The notes below the pieces were generated by a model. That model was given only the letters and a program-made list of their open reading frames with translations. It searched no databases and was not told the origin of the DNA. 64,000 nucleotides of DNA, from the NCBI RefSeq assembly GCF_030815145.1, contig NZ_JAUSWJ010000001.1, forward strand, positions 2,728,001-2,792,000, written 5' to 3'. The translations under genes and the position numbers were made by a program. This document shows positions 3,141 to 20,672 of this stretch, one piece after another. Positions within the stretch are counted from its first letter, which is position 1; each line of letters starts with the position of its first letter. This DNA is from Kaistia geumhonensis. Its GTDB lineage: Bacteria; Pseudomonadota; Alphaproteobacteria; Rhizobiales; Kaistiaceae.

Positions 3141-3944
3141 TCAGCCCTCGAGGCTGATGGCGGCGCCGGCCGTTCCGCTGGCGAGGAAGGTCTGCAACTG
3201 GCCGACGATCTGCCGGGCGTGCCGTCCGGCGATCTGCTCGGCCGCCTCGGCATCGCGCGCCGCGATGGCCGCGATCATCTCGTCATGCTCGGCGACATAG
3301 GGGTCGGGCAGGTGGTCGTCGAAGGACGAGTAGTAGACGCGCAGGATGCGGCGACCCTCGTCGAGCAGGCGCGTGAAGAGATCGGTGTAGTATCGGTTCC
3401 GACCCGCCTCCGCGATCGCGACATGGAAGTCGCGATTGGTCGCGATCATCCCCGCGGCATCGGCGGCGCGCACGGCTTCGGAAAACCGCGCCTGTCCCTC
3501 GTGCAGCCTTTCGAGATCGGCCTCGGTACGCTTCAGCGCGGCAAGGCGCGTGGTGACGCGATACATGAGCGTCAGCGCATCGAAATAGACCGGCAGATTG
3601 GCGAAATCGATCGGCGCGACGATGGTGTTGCGGTTGGGCAGCGTGGTCGCGAGACCCTCGGCGACGAGGCGCACCAGCGCCTCGCGGACCGGCGTGCGCG
3701 ACATCTGGAAGCGCTCCGAGAGCCGCGTCTCGTCGAGGCCGGCGCCCGGCTGCAGGCGCAGTTCCAGGATATCGCTCTTGAGCGCGTCATAGATGAGCTG
3801 CACGCCGAAGCCGCGCCCGCCTTCGGGCTTCACCGTCTCGCCCGCCAGAGTTCCGGCCATGCCGCGTCCGCCCACCATCCGATCGACCGGCTCCGCGCTT
3901 ACACCGGCCCCCGCGACGGCGCAAGGCGGCGTCCGGACGGTCAT
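3141..3944 (-). CDS. GntR-family (FadR/FCD subfamily) transcriptional regulator
   Basis: 267-residue DNA-binding regulator. A winged-helix domain occupies about residues 46-112, with the GntR recognition signature ETRLSERFQMSRTPVREAL followed by VRLVAEGL. An all-helical FCD ligand domain follows at about 118-250, with the metal-ligand-like histidine pattern FHVAIAEAGRN and AEHDEMIAAI. The start at 3944 is the last ATG before the divergent gene; later Met codons at residues 23 and 29 are possible because the first 45 residues are poorly conserved. It is transcribed away from a RidA gene with 69 bases between them, so it probably controls that gene and perhaps the oxygenase cluster that follows. 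Ligand unknown. Confidence 0.9.
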   Translation of the reverse strand: MTVRTPPCAVAGAGVSAEPVDRMVGGRGMAGTLAGETVKPEGGRGFGVQLIYDALKSDILELRLQPGAGLDETRLSERFQMSRTPVREALVRLVAEGLATTLPNRNTIVAPIDFANLPVYFDALTLMYRVTTRLAALKRTEADLERLHEGQARFSEAVRAADAAGMIATNRDFHVAIAEAGRNRYYTDLFTRLLDEGRRILRVYYSSFDDHLPDPYVAEHDEMIAAIAARDAEAAEQIAGRHARQIVGQLQTFLASGTAGAAISLEG

Positions 3945-3980
3945 GGCTTCCGACTTTCTTAAGATCCGCTCGATTCCATG

Positions 3981-3992
3981 GGGGGATCCCCC
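3981..3992. promoter_or_regulatory. Perfect 12-bp palindrome between gntR and ridA, candidate operator
   Basis: GGGGGATCCCCC lies in the 69-base gap between the divergent GntR regulator and the RidA gene and is flanked on both sides by CGATTC. A two-fold symmetric site in this position is what a dimeric GntR repressor would bind, but the sequence is not a known FadR-type consensus. The assignment is inferred from position and symmetry only. Confidence 0.3.
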
Positions 3993-4013
3993 GATTCGCC
4001 CGCCGGAGCCCCC

Positions 4014-4475
4014 ATGCTGATCGAACGCCGCCTCGAAGACCTCGGCATCACGCTGCCCAAGGTGCCGACCCCGGTCGGAACCTATCTTCCGGCCGTGCAG
4101 ATGGGCGATCTCCTGTTCCTCTGCGGCCAGGGCCCGCTGCTGCCCAACGGCGAGAACGCCAGGGGCAAGCTCGGCGGCGGCGTCACGGTCGAGGAAGGCT
4201 ACCAGCTCGCCCGGCTGACGGGGCTCTACCTGATCTCGGCCATGAAGGACGCGCTCGGCGATCTCGACCGCGTCGCGCGGATCGGCAAGGTGCTCGGCAT
4301 GGTCAACTGCGTGCCGGAGTTCGAGGACACGCCCGGCGTCATCAACGGCTGCTCCGACCTCTTCGTCGAAGTCTTCGGCGAAAAGGGCCGCCATGCCCGC
4401 TCCTCGGTCGGCATGTCGACGCTGCCCGGCAATATGAGCGTCGAGATCGAGGCGATCGTGCAGGTCGTGGCGTAG
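4014..4475 (+). CDS. RidA (YjgF/YER057c/UK114) family imine/enamine deaminase-like protein
   Basis: 153 residues, a normal family length. RidA proteins are trimers that hydrolyse reactive imines and enamines made by amine- and amino-acid-processing enzymes. The C-terminal signature is present (HARSSVGMSTLPGNMSVEIE), including the arginine at residue 129 that binds the substrate carboxylate in RidA and the glutamate at about 144. This version begins with the longer MLIERRLEDLGI lead typical of the degradative-cluster subgroup. ATG 4014 gives this canonical N-terminus; upstream in-frame codons run into the regulator promoter. It is divergent from a GntR regulator and convergent with a Rieske-less oxygenase gene, so a role in clearing an imine product of that pathway is plausible but inferred. 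Confidence 0.9.
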   Translation: MLIERRLEDLGITLPKVPTPVGTYLPAVQMGDLLFLCGQGPLLPNGENARGKLGGGVTVEEGYQLARLTGLYLISAMKDALGDLDRVARIGKVLGMVNCVPEFEDTPGVINGCSDLFVEVFGEKGRHARSSVGMSTLPGNMSVEIEAIVQVVA

Positions 4476-4648: not shown

Positions 4649-5518
4649 TCAGGCGGCGCGTTCGGCCGTGCCGAAAGTGACGCCCTTTTCCTTGAGCCAG
4701 CGGCGATAGGCGACCGAGGACATGTCGGCGCGCGTCGGGATCTCGGCGCGGGGCTCCAGCGGCAGGAGGCGCGGGCGCTGGTTTTCGAGGATGATCCGGT
4801 CCTGCAGGAAGATGAGCTGCTGGAAATGGATCATGCTGGTCAGCGTGCTCTCGTCGTCGACGATGAACATTACCGGATGCGCGCGGCAGCGATCATGGTC
4901 CAGCGGCTGCACGAAGAGGCAGATGACGTCCCAGCGATTGGCCGCGGCCGGGCAGGTCTTGTAGAGCAGCGTCTGGAACGGCGCGGCGACGCGGTACATG
5001 TATTGCGTCATGATGCCGCCCGAGGCCGACAGCGCCGCCTGCGGCTGGAAGAACTCGCAATTGGTCGCCCAGACCTCGTCGACGTCGCGGCGGATCTCGG
5101 TCGTGTAGTGGCGCACCTCGGTATGCGGCTCGGCGCCGAGGATATCGGTGTGCACGAAGGGGAAATGCGCCATGTCGAGGAAGTTCTCGACGATGCGCAG
5201 GCCCGACGCCCTGACCTGAACGGCGCCGCAGACGACATGGCGGCGATCCGGCTCGTCGGCTTCCGGGATCTCGAACAGGCCGCGCGGCGGCTCGCCCAGC
5301 GTCGTCCAGAGATAGCCCCAGCGCTCATGCGTCGGCAGCGGCGCGCCGAGGCTGCCGTCCCCGAGACGCTCGCGCACGATCACCGTCTCCGTCGCGTCGC
5401 GCGCGACGACGAGATCGCGGCCGAGCAGCCGGTTCGGCCGCGGCGCGGCCGGAATGTCCTGCAGCGCGTCGATCACATACCAGTGGTCGAGCGAGGCTTT
5501 CTCGGCCGGTCGCGCCAT
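4649..5518 (-). CDS. Rieske-less non-heme iron oxygenase (NdmC-like catalytic component)
   Basis: 289 residues. The protein resembles the alpha subunit of VanA/phthalate-type Rieske oxygenases, but the segment that should hold the C-x-H...C-x2-H cluster is absent: the chain passes from LLGRDLVVARDA (residues 31-42) directly to WGYLWTTLGEPP (67-78). The catalytic half is intact, with EN-x2-D115-x2-H118-x4-H123 (NFLDMAHFPFVH) and D240 (QDRIILENQ) as the two-His-one-carboxylate iron site plus bridging aspartate. It therefore needs a Rieske cluster from a partner. The caffeine N7-demethylase NdmC is the characterised precedent. It is transcribed divergently from a cluster holding a stand-alone Rieske protein and a GST-like protein. 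Likely oxidative demethylation or hydroxylation; substrate unknown. Confidence 0.85.
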   Translation of the reverse strand: MARPAEKASLDHWYVIDALQDIPAAPRPNRLLGRDLVVARDATETVIVRERLGDGSLGAPLPTHERWGYLWTTLGEPPRGLFEIPEADEPDRRHVVCGAVQVRASGLRIVENFLDMAHFPFVHTDILGAEPHTEVRHYTTEIRRDVDEVWATNCEFFQPQAALSASGGIMTQYMYRVAAPFQTLLYKTCPAAANRWDVICLFVQPLDHDRCRAHPVMFIVDDESTLTSMIHFQQLIFLQDRIILENQRPRLLPLEPRAEIPTRADMSSVAYRRWLKEKGVTFGTAERAA

Positions 5519-5540
5519 GCTTCGTCCTCGTGTTGATGTC

Positions 5541-5571
5541 GCATTGCCCAGGCGCTAGACATGCCGCAATG
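5541..5571. promoter_or_regulatory. Short inverted repeat in the divergent oxygenase/Rieske promoter region
   Basis: GCATTGC at 5541-5547 and GCAATG at 5566-5571 form a 6-base inverted repeat in the 100-base gap between the divergent oxygenase gene and the acylphosphatase-like/Rieske/GST operon. A shared operator here would let one regulator control both arms. Weak evidence: the arms are short and no known consensus matches. Confidence 0.2.
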
Positions 5572-5618
5572 TTGGGCGGAAGCGCAAGGGCGTCGGCCGT
5601 GCGCGCGACGGAACGGGC

Positions 5619-5855
5619 ATGAGAGAGCGGATCGAGCTGGTGTTTCTCGGCGTCTTCGAGCCGGCGAGCTTCGCGGAGTTCATGCGCCATCGCGCGCGGC
5701 GCCTCTCCGTCAGCGCAGAAACGCGCCGGCTCGGGGCGGATCGCGTCGAGGTGACGGTGGAGGGCGAAGGCGCGCTGGTCGACATGTTCGAGGTCGCCTG
5801 CAGCCTCGGGCCGCTCGACTGCCTCGTCACCGATGTTTCCCGCCGCGCCGCATGA
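5619..5855 (+). CDS. Acylphosphatase-fold protein lacking the catalytic Arg and Asn
   Basis: 78 residues. The order strand (ERIELVFLG), helix (FAEFMRHRARRLS), two strands (VSAETRRLG, DRVEVTVEGE), helix (ALVDMFEVACSLG), strand (CLVTDVSRRA) matches the acylphosphatase alpha/beta sandwich, and RARRLSVS...VEVTVEGE aligns well with that family. In active enzymes the loop GRVQGVGFR carries the phosphate-binding arginine and K-N-L-x-D-G carries the catalytic asparagine; here they read GVFEPASFA and RRLGAD, so both are lost. It is most likely a binding or structural protein rather than an enzyme. It is the first gene of an operon, 25 bases before the Rieske gene, which suggests a connection to the split oxygenase. 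The function is not known. Confidence 0.65.
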   Translation: MRERIELVFLGVFEPASFAEFMRHRARRLSVSAETRRLGADRVEVTVEGEGALVDMFEVACSLGPLDCLVTDVSRRAA

Positions 5856-5880
5856 GAAGGCCCGAAGCCGAGGAGATGCC

Positions 5881-6558
5881 ATGACCGATTCCGCCGCGCC
5901 GCTTCCCGGCTGGCATGCCGTCGCGCTCGCCGCCGATATCGAGCCGGGCACCTCGGCCGGCACGCGGCTTCACGACCAGGAGCTGGTCGTCTGGCGCGAC
6001 AGCGCGGGCGAGAGCCATGTCTGGGAGGATCGCTGCCCCCATCGCGGCATGCGCCTTTCCTTCGGCTTCGTGCGCGGCAACCATATCGCCTGCCTCTATC
6101 ACGGCTGGGCCTATGACACGGCCGGCCAGTGCCGTGCGATTCCCGCCCATCCCGACCTCGCCGTGCCGGAGACGATCCGCGTGCCGACCTATGCCTCGGC
6201 CGAGGCCTCGGGGCTGATCTTCGTCTGGTCCGAGATGGGGGCGAGCGGGATGGCACCGCCGGCGGCCCGCCCCCTCCATCCGCTGCGCAGCCTCTTCGTC
6301 GAGGCGTCGCCGGAGCGGGTCGCGGCGCTCCTCGCCGGCCGCTTCGCGCCGGGACCGGACGGCAGCTTCGCCGGCCGCCTCGCCGGTACCGACGTGGTCC
6401 TCTTCCTGCAGCCCTTCACATCGGAGCGGACGGGCCTCCATGTGACGATCGACGGCGCCGGGGACCGGTCGCTGGTCTCGCGCGGCGCCGAGGCGCTCCG
6501 GCATGCGATCGAGGCGGCGGCGCCGTCGCGCTTCGCCTCGCTGGAGTTCGCCGCATGA
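5881..6558 (+). CDS. Stand-alone Rieske [2Fe-2S] protein, electron-transfer partner of a split oxygenase
   Basis: 225 residues. The start is the ATG at 5881 behind GAGGAG. A complete Rieske motif is present: C52-P-H54-R-G and C71-L-Y-H74-G-W, preceded by the usual lead (ELVVWRDSAGESHVWEDR). Residues 1-118 form the Rieske domain as in oxygenase alpha subunits. The remaining 105 residues contain no NxxDxxHxxxxH iron site and no FMN, NAD or plant-type ferredoxin motif, so the protein is neither a complete oxygenase nor a reductase. It overlaps the downstream GST-like gene by 4 bases. By analogy with the extra N-terminal Rieske domain of NdmD it should feed electrons to the divergent Rieske-less oxygenase; the reductase must be encoded elsewhere. 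Confidence 0.85.
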   Translation: MTDSAAPLPGWHAVALAADIEPGTSAGTRLHDQELVVWRDSAGESHVWEDRCPHRGMRLSFGFVRGNHIACLYHGWAYDTAGQCRAIPAHPDLAVPETIRVPTYASAEASGLIFVWSEMGASGMAPPAARPLHPLRSLFVEASPERVAALLAGRFAPGPDGSFAGRLAGTDVVLFLQPFTSERTGLHVTIDGAGDRSLVSRGAEALRHAIEAAAPSRFASLEFAA

Positions 6559-7190
6559 GCCCGCGCCTCGTCTTGCACGACTACGAGCTCGACGCCGACT
6601 GCTACAAGGTGCGGCTGCTGCTCGCCCTGCTCGGCGCGCCCTATGAGCGGGTCGCCGTCGACGTCCATCCCGGCCACGAGGAGCGCTCGGCGGCCTATCT
6701 CGCGCTCAACCCGCGCGGCAGCCTGCCGATCCTCGAACAGGACGGGCTCGTCCTCGCCGAGGCGGAGGCGATCCTTGTCCATTGCGCGGGGTTTCTTCCG
6801 GGCGGTTCCGATCTGGTGCCCGAGGATGCCGCCGAGCATGCTCGCATGCTGTCCTGGCTCTTCTTTGCCCGCGGCCCGCTGGCGGCGGCGGGGCTGGCGC
6901 GGCTGCATGCGATGCTCGAGCTTCCCGGCGACGGTCCGGCGCTGGAACGGCAGGCGCTCGCCGCCTTCCGCGTCATGGAAGATCACATGACGGCCCGGCG
7001 CATCGCCGGCTCGGAGTGGTTCGTCGGCGCGGCGCCGAGCCTCGCCGATCTGGCCCTCTTCCCGGCGATCGCGCTCTCCCGCGATTTCGGCGTCGATCAC
7101 GACGCCTATCCGGCGCTGCGGCGCTGGATGCGGCGGGTCAGGGCGCTCCCCGGCTTCGTCACCATGCCCGGCATTCCCGACTATCACTGA
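6555..7190 (+). CDS. Glutathione S-transferase family protein (NdmE-like scaffold candidate)
   Basis: 211 residues with the cytosolic GST architecture: thioredoxin-like N-terminal domain at about 1-80 containing the cis-proline segment GSLPILEQDG, and an all-helical domain at about 90-205 with SLADLALFPAI and ALRRWMRRVRALPGF. The glutathione-contact Glu-Ser of the family reads Glu-Ala here (LAEAEAI), and the usual catalytic Ser/Tyr region reads ADCYKVRL, so catalysis is doubtful. Its ATG overlaps the Rieske stop (ATGA), indicating translational coupling and probably stoichiometric production. NdmE, a GST-like protein needed to hold NdmC and NdmD together, is the relevant precedent; the scaffold role is an inference from that. 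Confidence 0.8.
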   Translation: MSPRLVLHDYELDADCYKVRLLLALLGAPYERVAVDVHPGHEERSAAYLALNPRGSLPILEQDGLVLAEAEAILVHCAGFLPGGSDLVPEDAAEHARMLSWLFFARGPLAAAGLARLHAMLELPGDGPALERQALAAFRVMEDHMTARRIAGSEWFVGAAPSLADLALFPAIALSRDFGVDHDAYPALRRWMRRVRALPGFVTMPGIPDYH

Positions 7191-7258
7191 CCGACGCCTT
7201 GTCAGACGAGCCGCCGGGCCGATAACCTCCGCCTCCCCAAGATGAGTGGAGGATGACC

Positions 7259-8242
7259 ATGCGATCGCGGACATTCGGCCGAACCGGCCGCCAGGTGAGC
7301 GAAATCGGCTTCGGCGCCTGGGCGATCGGCGCGAGCTGGGGCCATGTCAGCGAGGACGACGCCATCGCCGCGCTGGAGACGGCGCTCGATGCCGGCGTCA
7401 CCTTCATCGATACCGCCGACGTCTATGGCGACGGCCGCTCGGAGAAGCTGATCGCGCGCGTCCTCAAGGCACGCGGCGGCCAGCGGCCCTTTGTCGCCAC
7501 CAAGGCGGGGCGCCGGCTCAATCCGCATGTCGCCAGCGCCTATACCGGCGAGGCCCTGCAAGGCTTCGTCGACCGCAGCCGCGACTATCTCGAGATGCAG
7601 ACGCTCGATCTCGTGCAGCTGCACTGCCCGCCGACCGACGTCTATTACCATCCGGAAGTGTTCGCCGCGCTGGACGCGATGAAGGCGGCCGGCAAGATCG
7701 CCGACTACGGCGTCAGCGTCGAGCGCGTCGAGGAAGCGCTGAAGGCGATGGAATATCCCGGGGTCGTCTCGATCCAGATCATCTTCAACATCTTCCGCCA
7801 GCGGCCGATCGAGCGGCTGTTCCAGCGCGCGATCGAGACCGAGACGGCGATCATCGCCCGCGTGCCGCTCGCGAGCGGGCTGCTCACCGGCAAGATGTCG
7901 GCCGCGACCACCTTCGATGCCTCCGACCATCGCCAGTTCAACCGCCACGGCGAGGCCTTCGATGTCGGCGAGACGTTCTCGGGCGTTCCCTACGACGTCG
8001 GGCTCGCGGCCGTCGAGAAGATCCGCCCGCTGGTCGGCGACACGACCATGGCGAAGTTCGCGCTGAAATGGATCCTGATGTTCGAGGCGGTGACCGTCGC
8101 CATTCCGGGCGCCAAGAACGCCGAGCAGGCGCTGGCCAATGCCGACGCGGCGACACTGCCGCCACTCCCGGACGAGACCATGGCCGCGCTCAAGGCCATC
8201 TATGACGAGGATATCCGGCCGTATGTCCACCAGCGCTGGTGA
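7259..8242 (+). CDS. Aldo/keto reductase
   Basis: About 327 residues forming the NADPH-dependent TIM-barrel reductase fold. The catalytic tetrad is visible: Asp and Tyr in FIDTADVYGDGRSE, Lys in VATKAG and His in LVQLHCPP. The C-terminal cofactor region reads VAIPGAKNAEQALAN. An in-frame ATG at 7253 directly abuts the GGAGG at 7248-7252, leaving no spacing, so the ATG at 7259 (six bases away) is preferred. The gene begins 68 bases after the GST-like gene on the same strand and may belong to the same operon. A role in reducing a carbonyl product is possible, but no substrate can be named. Confidence 0.85.
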   Translation: MRSRTFGRTGRQVSEIGFGAWAIGASWGHVSEDDAIAALETALDAGVTFIDTADVYGDGRSEKLIARVLKARGGQRPFVATKAGRRLNPHVASAYTGEALQGFVDRSRDYLEMQTLDLVQLHCPPTDVYYHPEVFAALDAMKAAGKIADYGVSVERVEEALKAMEYPGVVSIQIIFNIFRQRPIERLFQRAIETETAIIARVPLASGLLTGKMSAATTFDASDHRQFNRHGEAFDVGETFSGVPYDVGLAAVEKIRPLVGDTTMAKFALKWILMFEAVTVAIPGAKNAEQALANADAATLPPLPDETMAALKAIYDEDIRPYVHQRW

Positions 8243-17963: not shown

Positions 17964-20672
17964 TCAGGACGGCGCCGCCCGCATGCCCTTCAGCCTGTAC
18001 AGCGCCTCGAGAGCCTCGCGCGGCGTCAGCTCGTCGGGATTGAGCGCATCGAGCGCCGGTCCAAGCGGGTCCACCGCCGACGGCGCCGGCGCGGGAGGCG
18101 GGGCGCGGAGGGCGGCGAAGAGCGGCAGGTCGTCGATCAGCGTCGCGGCCGGCGACTTGCGGTCGCCCTCCTCGAGGCGCTCCAGAACGGCGCGGGCGCG
18201 GGCGACGACCGAGGGCGGCAGTCCGGCCAGCTTCGCCACCTGGATGCCGTAGGAGCGGTCGGCGGCGCCGGGCACGATCTCGTGCAGGAAGACGACATCG
18301 CCCTGCCATTCGCGCACGCGGACGGTCGCGTTGTCGAGCCGGTCGAGCCGCTGCGCCAGCGCCGTCAGCTCGTGATAATGCGTCGCGAAGAGCGCCCGCG
18401 AGCGGTTCGCCTCGTGCAGATGCTCGATCGCCGCCCAGGCGATCGAAAGGCCGTCGAAGGTGGCCGTGCCGCGGCCGATCTCGTCGAGGATCACCAGCGA
18501 GCGCGCCGTGGCCTGGTTGAGGATCGCCGCCGTCTCGACCATCTCGACCATGAAGGTCGACCGGCCTCTGGCGAGATCGTCGGCGGCACCGACGCGGGAG
18601 AAGAGGCGGTCGACGACGCCGATATGGGCGCGGCGGGCCGGGACGAAGCTGCCGGTCTGCGCGAGCAGCGCGATGAGCGCGTTCTGGCGCAGGAAGGTCG
18701 ACTTGCCGGCCATGTTGGGGCCGGTGACGAGCCAGATGCGGCCCGCCTCCGCCTCGGCGCCGCCGAGGGTGCAATCGTTCGGGACGAAGCTCTCGCCGTT
18801 TCGCCGCAGCGCTTCCTCGACCACCGGATGGCGGCCGCCCTCGATCTCGAAGGCGAGCGAGCGGTCGACGACCGGCCGCGTCCAGTCGGACGCCTCGGCG
18901 AGCTCGGCGAGCGAGGCCGCCACGTCGAGGCGGGCGAGACCTTCGGCGACGGCCCGGATGGGCGCCTCGGCGGCCAGCACCTCGGACGCCAGCGCCTCGA
19001 AGATGCCCAGCTCGCGCTGAAGCGCCCGGTCGCCGGCCGAGGCGATCTTCGCCTCCAGCTCGGCGAGCTCCGTCGTCACGAAGCGCATGGCGCCGGCCAT
19101 GGTCTGACGGTGGATGTAGCGGCCGGCGAACTCGGCCGAGATCAGCCGCTCGCCATGGACCTGCGGCACCTCGATGAAATAGCCGAGCACGTTGTTGTGC
19201 TTGACCTTCAGGGCGCGGATGTCCGTCTCGGCGGCGTAGCTGCCCTGCAGCGCGGCGATCACCTGGCGGCTTTCGTCGCGGAGCGCGCGGAGCTGGTCGA
19301 GATCGCCGTCATGACCGGCGCGGACGAAGCCGCCGTCGCGCTTCAGGAGCGGCAATTCGTCGGCGAGCGCGGCGCCGATCCGCGTCGCGAGACCGACAGG
19401 CGCCGAGGAAATCAGCTCGATGACAGCGGCAAGCTCGTCCGGCAGCGTGCCCAGCCCGGCGAGATCCTCGGCGAGGCCGGCGGCGACGTCGAGCCCGGCG
19501 CCGATCGCGGCGAGATCGCGCGGGCCGCCGCGATCGAGCGCCAGACGCGACAGGGCGCGCAGAAGGTCCGGGGCGCGGGCGAGGCGGGCGCGGCAGTCGG
19601 CGCGTTCCGCGGGCATGGCGACGAAGCGCTCGACGGCGTCGAGGCGGCGGCCGATCTCGACCGGATCGGTGACCGGCCCCGCGAGACGGGCGGCGAGCAG
19701 GCGGCTGCCGGCACCGGTCACGCAGCGGTCGATGGCGCCGAGCAGGCTGCCGCGACGCTCGCCCGACATGGTGCGCATGATCTCGAGATTGGCCCTCGTC
19801 GCGGCATCGACGGAGAGAAGCGTCCCTTCGCTCTCGCGTTGCGGCCGTGCGAGGGGCGCCCGCGCGCCGACCTGCGTCTTCTCGACATAGGCGAGCGCCG
19901 CTGCCGCAGCCGACAATTCGACGCGCGAGAAGGCGCCGAGGCCGTCCAGCGTCTCGACGCCGAAATAGGCGGCGAGTTTCGTGGCCGCGGTCGCGCCGTC
20001 GAAGAAGGCCGCGGGGAGGGGGCCCGGCTCCACGGGAAGCGCACGCAGCAGCGGGCCGAGCGCCTCGTCGGAGAGCAGCGTATCGGCGACGAGGAGTTCG
20101 CGCGGATCGATCCGGGCCACATCGGCGGCGAGGCGCTGGCGGTCGGTCGCGGCGACGCGGAAATCGCCGGTCGAGATGTCGACCCAGGCGAGCGCCAGCC
20201 CGTCGGCCCCGCCCGGCCCGACGCCGCGGCCGCGGGCGAGCGTCGCGAGATAGTTGCCCTCGCCCGCCTTCAGCAGCGTCTCCTCGGTGATCGTGCCGGG
20301 CGTGACGATGCGCACGACGTCGCGCTTCACGACCGAGCGGCCGCCACGCTTCTTCGCCTCGGCCGGGTCCTCGGTCTGCTCGCAGACGGCGACACGGTGG
20401 CCCAGCGCGATCAGCTTCTGGAGATAGTCGCCGGCGGCATGGATCGGAACGCCGCACATCGGAATGTCGGCGCCGAGATGCTTGCCGCGCTTCGTCAGCG
20501 TGATGCCGAGCGCGCGGGCGGCGATCTCCGCGTCGCCGAAGAACAGCTCGTAGAAGTCGCCCATCCGGTAGAACAGCAGCGCCGCGGGATGCGCCGCCTT
20601 CAGCTCCAGATACTGCTCCATCATGGGCGTGGCGCGCGCGCCCGCCGCTTCGCTCTCTGTCGTGTCCAGCAT
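17964..20672 (-). CDS. mutS: DNA mismatch repair protein MutS
   Basis: 902 residues. It recognises base mismatches and small loops. The mismatch-binding FYELF motif is near residue 41 ([18 protein letters not shown]), followed by connector, lever and clamp domains. The ATPase has Walker [11 protein letters not shown], Walker [17 protein letters not shown] and the ABC signature region, then [10 protein letters not shown]. The C-terminus ends after a short helix-turn-helix. First gene of the mutS-glnD-murJ-trpS-usp string, divergent from maeB. Confidence 0.97.

Follow-up and report, generated by a model that had tools for sequence, protein, structure and literature searches.

The window, a 64,000-nucleotide stretch of the Kaistia geumhonensis genome (contig NZ_JAUSWJ010000001.1, positions 2,728,001 to 2,792,000), carries a locus for what appears to be a Rieske oxygenase divided over two protein chains. 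Its core comprises four genes, one oxygenase gene on the minus strand and, across a gap of 100 bases, three genes on the plus strand:

4649-5518, minus strand: Rieske-less oxygenase P0001, an NdmC-like catalytic subunit of 289 residues with a helix-grip catalytic domain
5519..5618, no strand: divergent intergenic region of 100 bases, presumed from gene order alone to hold promoters in both directions
5619-5855, plus strand: acylphosphatase-fold protein P0005, 78 residues, first gene of the operon
5881-6558, plus strand: stand-alone Rieske protein P0002, 225 residues, with a further in-frame ATG at 5833
6555-7190, plus strand: GST-like protein P0003, NdmE-like, 211 residues, with an ATGA overlap with the Rieske gene

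The P0005 gene ends 25 bases ahead of the P0002 start, and the P0003 start overlaps the P0002 stop by 4 bases.

P0001 matches the Pfam model VanA_C (4.5e-22) but no Rieske model, and SxtDIOX/SxtT in the PDB (1.9e-24). The key residues of NFLDMAHFPFVH (N112, D115, H118, and H123) and D240 are identical in all 156 rows of the oxygenase family alignment, which represents 148 distinct sequences and the window protein. H118, H123, and D240 make up the 2-His-1-carboxylate iron site of the helix-grip domain identified by the VanA_C match, and D115 is the bridging Asp. The C-x-H...C-x2-H cluster motif occurs in none of the 155 rows on which it was counted. Over residues 10-51, P0001 aligns with the first half of a Rieske domain (hhalign probability 93%, 2.8e-7), and the alignment stops one residue before the first cluster loop; control comparisons of this N-terminal part against a GST profile give 0.2-1.6%. 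Judged by its sequence, P0001 derives from a complete Rieske oxygenase by deletion of the portion that binds the cluster. In a tree of 108 oxygenase rows, the Rieske-less proteins form one group apart from the full-length enzymes, with a Shimodaira-Hasegawa-like approximate likelihood ratio test (SH-aLRT) support of 96.

P0002 matches the Pfam Rieske model at 6.3e-24, and its cluster ligands C52, H54, C71, and H74 are kept in 44/44 aligned relatives. Its last ~110 residues (about 117-225) are unexplained by Pfam. This C-terminal part matches the linker of NdmD-type Rieske-reductases (hhalign 96.8%, 2.3e-10, 98 columns). The linker in turn aligns with the catalytic domain of the oxygenase (81%, 1.2e-5, 96 columns). 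The AlphaFold2 model of P0002 has a mean predicted local distance difference test score (pLDDT) of 93.4 and a predicted template modeling score (pTM) of 0.88. In a Foldseek search, the top 24 hits of this model are SxtT/GxtA chains of full length, with query TM scores of 0.67-0.73 over 258-284 columns; the Rieske domain alone (residues 1-116) could reach a TM of about 0.52 at most. After residue 115, the H-x4-H iron motif is absent from all 44 Rieske proteins. On the strength of the linker matches and the predicted fold, the C-terminal part would be of catalytic-domain origin. The profiles and the model indicate that P0002 is not a simple ferredoxin but a Rieske oxygenase whose catalytic domain is reduced in size and whose iron site is gone. 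With P0002 lacking the iron site and P0001 lacking the cluster, the two are best described, as far as sequence and modeling indicate, as reciprocally decayed chains, each without one metal site.

All three proteins recognized at the outset have counterparts in the ndm cluster of a P. putida plasmid (L220). P0001 is 47% identical to NdmC over 276 residues, P0002 is 38% identical to the Rieske part of NdmD over 133 residues, and P0003, which matches Pfam GST_N and GST_C, is 37% identical to the GST-like NdmE over 205 residues. The ndm names on this plasmid were assigned by gene order, which we take to be that of the caffeine ndm cluster. The initial annotation of the locus, made from its sequence, had described an oxygenase with iron ligands and no Rieske motif, a divergent protein with an intact Rieske motif and a coupled GST-like gene, and had named NdmC, NdmD, and NdmE as the precedent; each of these statements is borne out by the matches above. 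Its list of three proteins overlooked the conserved acylphosphatase-like member encoded between the oxygenase and Rieske genes. It was right that the Rieske protein is free of a reductase, but its picture of a stand-alone Rieske unit needs correcting, since a shrunken catalytic domain appears to be present.

The core genes stay together in relatives. One genome per species was scanned, and the best-scoring 80 of 528 relatives (75 contigs) were taken with flanks of up to 10 kb around the oxygenase, some contigs being shorter. Within these 10 kb, a Rieske gene is found in 78/80 loci, a GST-like gene in 78/80, an acylphosphatase-like gene in 73/80, and all four in 73/80. A VanB/NdmD-type reductase was detected within this distance in 0/80 loci. 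The profile for that scan was built from two sequences; it did detect the fusions in L017, L018, L048, and L049, and in L020 and L022 it picked up reductases next to full-length oxygenases. Gene order varies from adjacent and divergent, as in the window, through divergent with 5-8 kb of purine genes in between, to compact, reordered operons. Eight loci of the same genus or family (L005-L012) had seemed to be counter-examples, with a lone oxygenase within 1.5 kb; in each of the eight, a stretch of 18-20 kb brings the three remaining genes into view at a distance of 5-8 kb.

The same linkage holds for whole genomes. Among 61 relatives, the oxygenase family is present in 18 genomes and a matching Rieske protein in the same 18 (16 unfused, 2 fused). 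Twelve other genomes match P0002 at 28-43% identity in frames of 346-674 residues, which are presumably full-length oxygenases. The acylphosphatase-like gene is present in 16/16 unfused genomes (on another contig in G037), in 0/2 fused genomes and in 0/42 others, and it adjoins the Rieske gene as the single match in 14/16 unfused relatives. Within the genus of the window, 11/14 genomes hold all of these genes, and the three that lack the oxygenase also lack the Rieske and acylphosphatase-like genes. The initial annotation had expected its three genes to co-occur in related genomes, and they do, both in the 78/80 loci that contain all three and in the 18 genomes that share oxygenase and Rieske protein. 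Some loci depart from the pattern. Fragments of the oxygenase and acylphosphatase-like genes lie side by side in L021 (G024:C71, about 18994-19481), a locus that is seemingly decaying as a unit. On the Roseicitreum antarcticum plasmid pRA01 (L053), a Rieske-less oxygenase stands alone: the Rieske, GST-like, and acylphosphatase-like genes are all missing from the 9 kb around it, the only stretch searched. Paralogues in L039 and L041-L044 likewise have no partner genes in their stretches; their genomes carry one Rieske and one acylphosphatase-like gene elsewhere.

A wider sample separates free from fused Rieske proteins. Among 297 genomes sampled across the order, the oxygenase profile found matches in 50 at E ≤ 1e-40; two of these were full-length oxygenases and were set aside, and in the remaining 48 the Rieske protein is free in 31 and fused to a reductase in 17. 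P0002, which ends at 225 residues without reductase domains, is of the free kind. An acylphosphatase-like gene lies near 29/31 free clusters and 0/17 fused ones (Fisher p = 4e-11, a value that ignores kinship), and a GST-like gene accompanies 31/31 and 16/17, respectively. A single change on the oxygenase tree separates fused from unfused labels, so the split does not represent many independent events and we do not lean on the p-value. Most free forms belong to one clade (83 rows, support 89), with the fused forms, L206, and one L093 gene outside it. There are also intermediate forms: in L206 and L248, a VanB-type reductase is encoded as a protein of its own, within the cluster or next to it. 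The acylphosphatase-like gene goes with an unfused Rieske protein, not with the lack of a reductase in itself. The idea that it replaces the reductase is weakened, as L248 and L186 have both. In a phylum-wide sample (20/397 genomes matched, 12 stretches taken), L246 and L247 combine a free Rieske protein with neither an acylphosphatase-like gene nor a reductase in the available stretch. A further intermediate form, the NdmD-like chain L245:8107-9297, consists of a Rieske domain, the linker and a plant-type ferredoxin domain, with no flavin or NAD domain. This architecture suggests a ferredoxin as the direct donor to the Rieske chain.

Several loci hold more catalytic chains than Rieske proteins. 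On five contigs (L059/L100, L061/L103, L070/L097, L076/L107, and L091/L104), two oxygenases flank one acylphosphatase-like/Rieske/GST-like module, which has identical coordinates in the paired loci. Genomes G001, G004, G007, G008, and G015 each contain two oxygenases, one P0002-type Rieske gene, and one acylphosphatase-like gene. Because two oxygenases share a single module, or in other cases a single Rieske-reductase, these arrangements suggest that catalytic chains are interchangeable. Two outward-pointing oxygenases also surround one such module in L208 and L241. In L048, L183, L192, L193, L196, L202, and L221, the clusters are of the fused type and pair one Rieske-reductase with two oxygenase genes in tandem. 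A broader proposal, to which we give somewhat less than even odds, is a modular class in which a shared module (decayed Rieske chain, GST-like protein, and dead acylphosphatase-like protein) and a housekeeping ferredoxin would serve swappable Rieske-less chains that differ in their specificity for modified purines.

The explanation that fits best, and that we regard as probable, is that the function of one ancestral polypeptide has been split over two reciprocally decayed chains, which work with GST-like and acylphosphatase-like partners and a general ferredoxin in purine oxidation. The complex of P0001, P0002, and their partners is a proposed assembly. In Rieske oxygenases, the review PMC12445004 states, cluster and iron are about 12 Å apart across subunits, compared with 45 Å within a chain, and a conserved Asp links them. 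Since ordinary Rieske oxygenases pass the electron between neighboring subunits, a mixed assembly of P0001 and P0002 could retain this inter-subunit path in trans. Electrons would run from ferredoxin to the Rieske chain, through D115 to the iron, and on to O2 and substrate. They would be supplied by a general [2Fe-2S] ferredoxin and its reductase and not by a dedicated VanB/NdmD-type enzyme. The GST-like and acylphosphatase-like proteins would be dedicated, non-enzymatic partners that aid chain assembly, the former in the aligning role that PMC4408171 postulates for NdmE. The module would serve more than one catalytic chain, and the reaction would most likely oxidize a methylated purine, by N-demethylation or in some other way.

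A number of observations weigh against this interpretation. The direct profile likeness between the P0002 C-terminal part and the oxygenase catalytic domain is weak (19-28%, one strand), and against a profile of three full-length oxygenases there is no match (0.2%). No Rieske gene lies in the fetched stretch of 2/80 loci (L094 and L096, both second oxygenase copies) or of 9/155 oxygenase rows. A clear VanB-type reductase is encoded elsewhere in 4/16 unfused genomes (E ≤ 2.5e-60), a separate one stands beside some unfused systems (L206, L248), and that of L186 adjoins a full-length oxygenase; because of these reductases, a general ferredoxin may not be the supplier in every case. The window locus has no purine gene beside it. 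Finally, the counts that point to a purine context (BMP-type transporter parts in 63/80 loci, adenine-deaminase-like genes in 39/80, guanine-deaminase-like genes in 30/80, and xanthine-dehydrogenase-like genes in 17/80) stand without a random-locus baseline for transporter genes.

As for the substrate, a methylated purine is our best guess by analogy, as NdmC is the only characterized relative, and the role of the system is probably the breakdown of modified purines. It may instead be that the assembly is right and the chemistry is something other than purine N-demethylation, the family having spread to other substrates with the purine genes reflecting part of that spread. Twelve of the 80 loci, including the closest relative L056 with its window-like arrangement, lack every purine or nucleobase-type gene that was sought; the xanthine-dehydrogenase-like and aldehyde dehydrogenase genes of some clusters may serve other N-heterocycles; and the substrate cannot be read from an identity of 47% to NdmC. 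The frequency of BMP-type transporter parts and the guanine deaminase gene that immediately follows the oxygenase in some loci argue for purines, as does the one characterized relative, which acts on 7-methylxanthine according to PMC4408171. We consider a different chemistry unlikely, though by no means negligible. L034 encodes an adenosine deaminase and a guanine deaminase that both score over their NCBIfam cut-offs, and the window genome encodes, away from the locus, a guanine deaminase and 10 BMP proteins, all over cut-off.

Three further genes lie next to the core:

4014..4475 (gene span 3978-4475), plus strand: RidA/YjgF-family protein adjoining the oxygenase, between the GntR regulator and the oxygenase; not core
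3141..3940, minus strand: GntR/FCD regulator, presumed local; the domain part of the open reading frame 3141-4394, start uncertain
7253..8242, plus strand: aldo/keto reductase downstream of the GST-like gene; not core

Only close relatives of the window have these genes together with the core, and the RidA-family gene is kept only in the window-type arrangement. Its product may handle a reactive imine.

The source of electrons bears on a second alternative, that the system is a plain, broken-up NdmCDE with a dedicated VanB/NdmD-type reductase elsewhere in the genome and an incidental acylphosphatase-like gene. The clear homology to NdmC, to the Rieske part of NdmD, and to NdmE fits such a view, as do the separate VanB-type reductases of L206 and L248 and the strong matches in 4/16 unfused genomes. 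The initial annotation had likewise placed a dedicated reductase elsewhere. When the NdmD-type reductase part was searched against the 16 unfused genomes, however, 7/16 gave no match at E ≤ 1e-10, and the window genome, a single complete contig, is among them. The only PF00175 protein of the window genome has no Fer2 domain that we could find and lies beside a molybdopterin-type oxidoreductase open reading frame, named by inspection. An incidental acylphosphatase-like gene is also at odds with the 29/31 and 0/17 distribution, even if this reflects one change on the tree. We therefore regard this alternative as unlikely. The window genome encodes three Rieske proteins, namely P0002, a MocE-family ferredoxin (TIGR02377, 183.9 bits, over cut-off), and a bc1 subunit (TIGR01416, 242 bits). 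With no VanB-type reductase found and the other two Rieske proteins being of MocE type and bc1, a housekeeping ferredoxin/reductase pair is the likely electron source. One candidate donor is a [2Fe-2S] ferredoxin encoded beside a TrxR-like flavoprotein at 4428.6 kb of the window genome, with NCBIfam matches under cut-off; another is the MocE-family Rieske ferredoxin with an HcaD/AndAa-like ferredoxin reductase, the two being encoded in a row with a desaturase-like gene in L138 (G000:C1, about 2027 kb). P0002 is the sole Rieske-oxygenase-type Rieske protein of the complete genome, in keeping with its initial assignment as the partner of the oxygenase. Overall, what was first observed at the locus is confirmed and the core idea is supported and extended; the number of parts, the nature of the Rieske protein, and the reductase are corrected.

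The two accessory proteins may not be active enzymes. At position 16 of the P0003 family, a Cys is found in 23/28 sequences, a Ser in 1/28, and Gly or Ala in 4/28. We take this Cys/Ser position near the N-terminus to be the site of the catalytic residue in GSTs of this kind, and its variation among the 28 sequences makes an enzymatic role of P0003 doubtful. P0005 scores 19.8 bits against Pfam acylphosphatase PF00708, under the cut-off of 22.5, and its family profile matches acylphosphatases at E 3e-4. The AlphaFold2 model (pLDDT 97.0) has an acylphosphatase fold with TM up to 0.90 to solved acylphosphatases. Such a fold and profile match would be expected of a working acylphosphatase of central metabolism that is no partner of the oxygenase. 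At the aligned positions that are presumably catalytic in acylphosphatases, however, Arg is present in 5/39 family members and Asn in 2/39, the window protein having Ala and Arg, and the gene adjoins the Rieske gene in 14/16 unfused relatives and is missing where the oxygenase is missing. A metabolic acylphosphatase is thus quite improbable. The pattern ...FEMACSLGPxDC... is strongly conserved in the family, and P0005 would be a dead-enzyme adaptor. Least probable of all, and hardly credible, is that P0002 serves unrelated oxygenases as an ordinary ferredoxin-like donor, with P0001 fed by another Rieske protein or none and a purely historical linkage: the connection seen here is a genomic one, and the window genome does encode a Rieske ferredoxin of the MocE type together with a ferredoxin reductase for it, but oxygenase and Rieske protein co-occur genome by genome, their genes are linked in many different gene orders, from 6-8 kb apart to compact operons, and the likeness of P0002 is to chains of oxygenases and not to ferredoxins of the MocE type.

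A Rieske oxygenase built from separate pieces appears to be present in many soil and plant-associated bacteria. With electron transfer running between subunits, there is no need in principle for the two metal sites to share a chain. Reciprocal loss would have separated them in two ways, with the Rieske chain fused to a reductase (NdmD) or left free, as in the window. Such a system offers a natural means of mixing, swapping, and titrating cluster and catalytic site separately, and bears on partner recognition and engineering. It further predicts a new type of accessory subunit, with an acylphosphatase fold, and a route that dispenses with a dedicated reductase. Many genes of rhizobia and their relatives now annotated as aromatic ring-hydroxylating dioxygenase, GST, or hypothetical would also gain a predicted function. 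In the openly licensed PubMed Central literature, we found no paper on the unfused form or on the acylphosphatase-like partner.

Among known systems, the three-component Rieske dioxygenases (AndAb, HcaC) also use a small, separate Rieske protein. P0002 falls far under their cut-offs (26 and 19.1 bits, compared with 150 and 113) and differs in having an oxygenase-type C-terminal domain and an oxygenase partner without a cluster of its own. P0005 shares its fold and a weak profile match with the PF00708 acylphosphatases, and is set apart by its score under the cut-off and the unconserved catalytic Arg and Asn. SxtT, SxtDIOX (GxtA), and NdmA/NdmB are the best solved relatives of both halves by sequence or fold; they carry both metal sites on one chain, whereas here there are two chains. 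The closest counterpart is NdmCDE, the 7-methylxanthine N7-demethylase of Pseudomonas putida CBB5 as portrayed in PMC4408171, whose structure is given as unsolved in PMC13237722. Both systems combine a Rieske-less oxygenase, a Rieske center in trans, and a GST-like partner, often beside purine genes. NdmD joins its Rieske domain to an FMN/NADH/ferredoxin reductase in one chain, whereas the window-type protein is free, with no reductase in its loci. The window type also adds the conserved acylphosphatase-like protein, and one module is common to two oxygenases on five contigs. The window system is a variant of NdmCDE, not a new kind.

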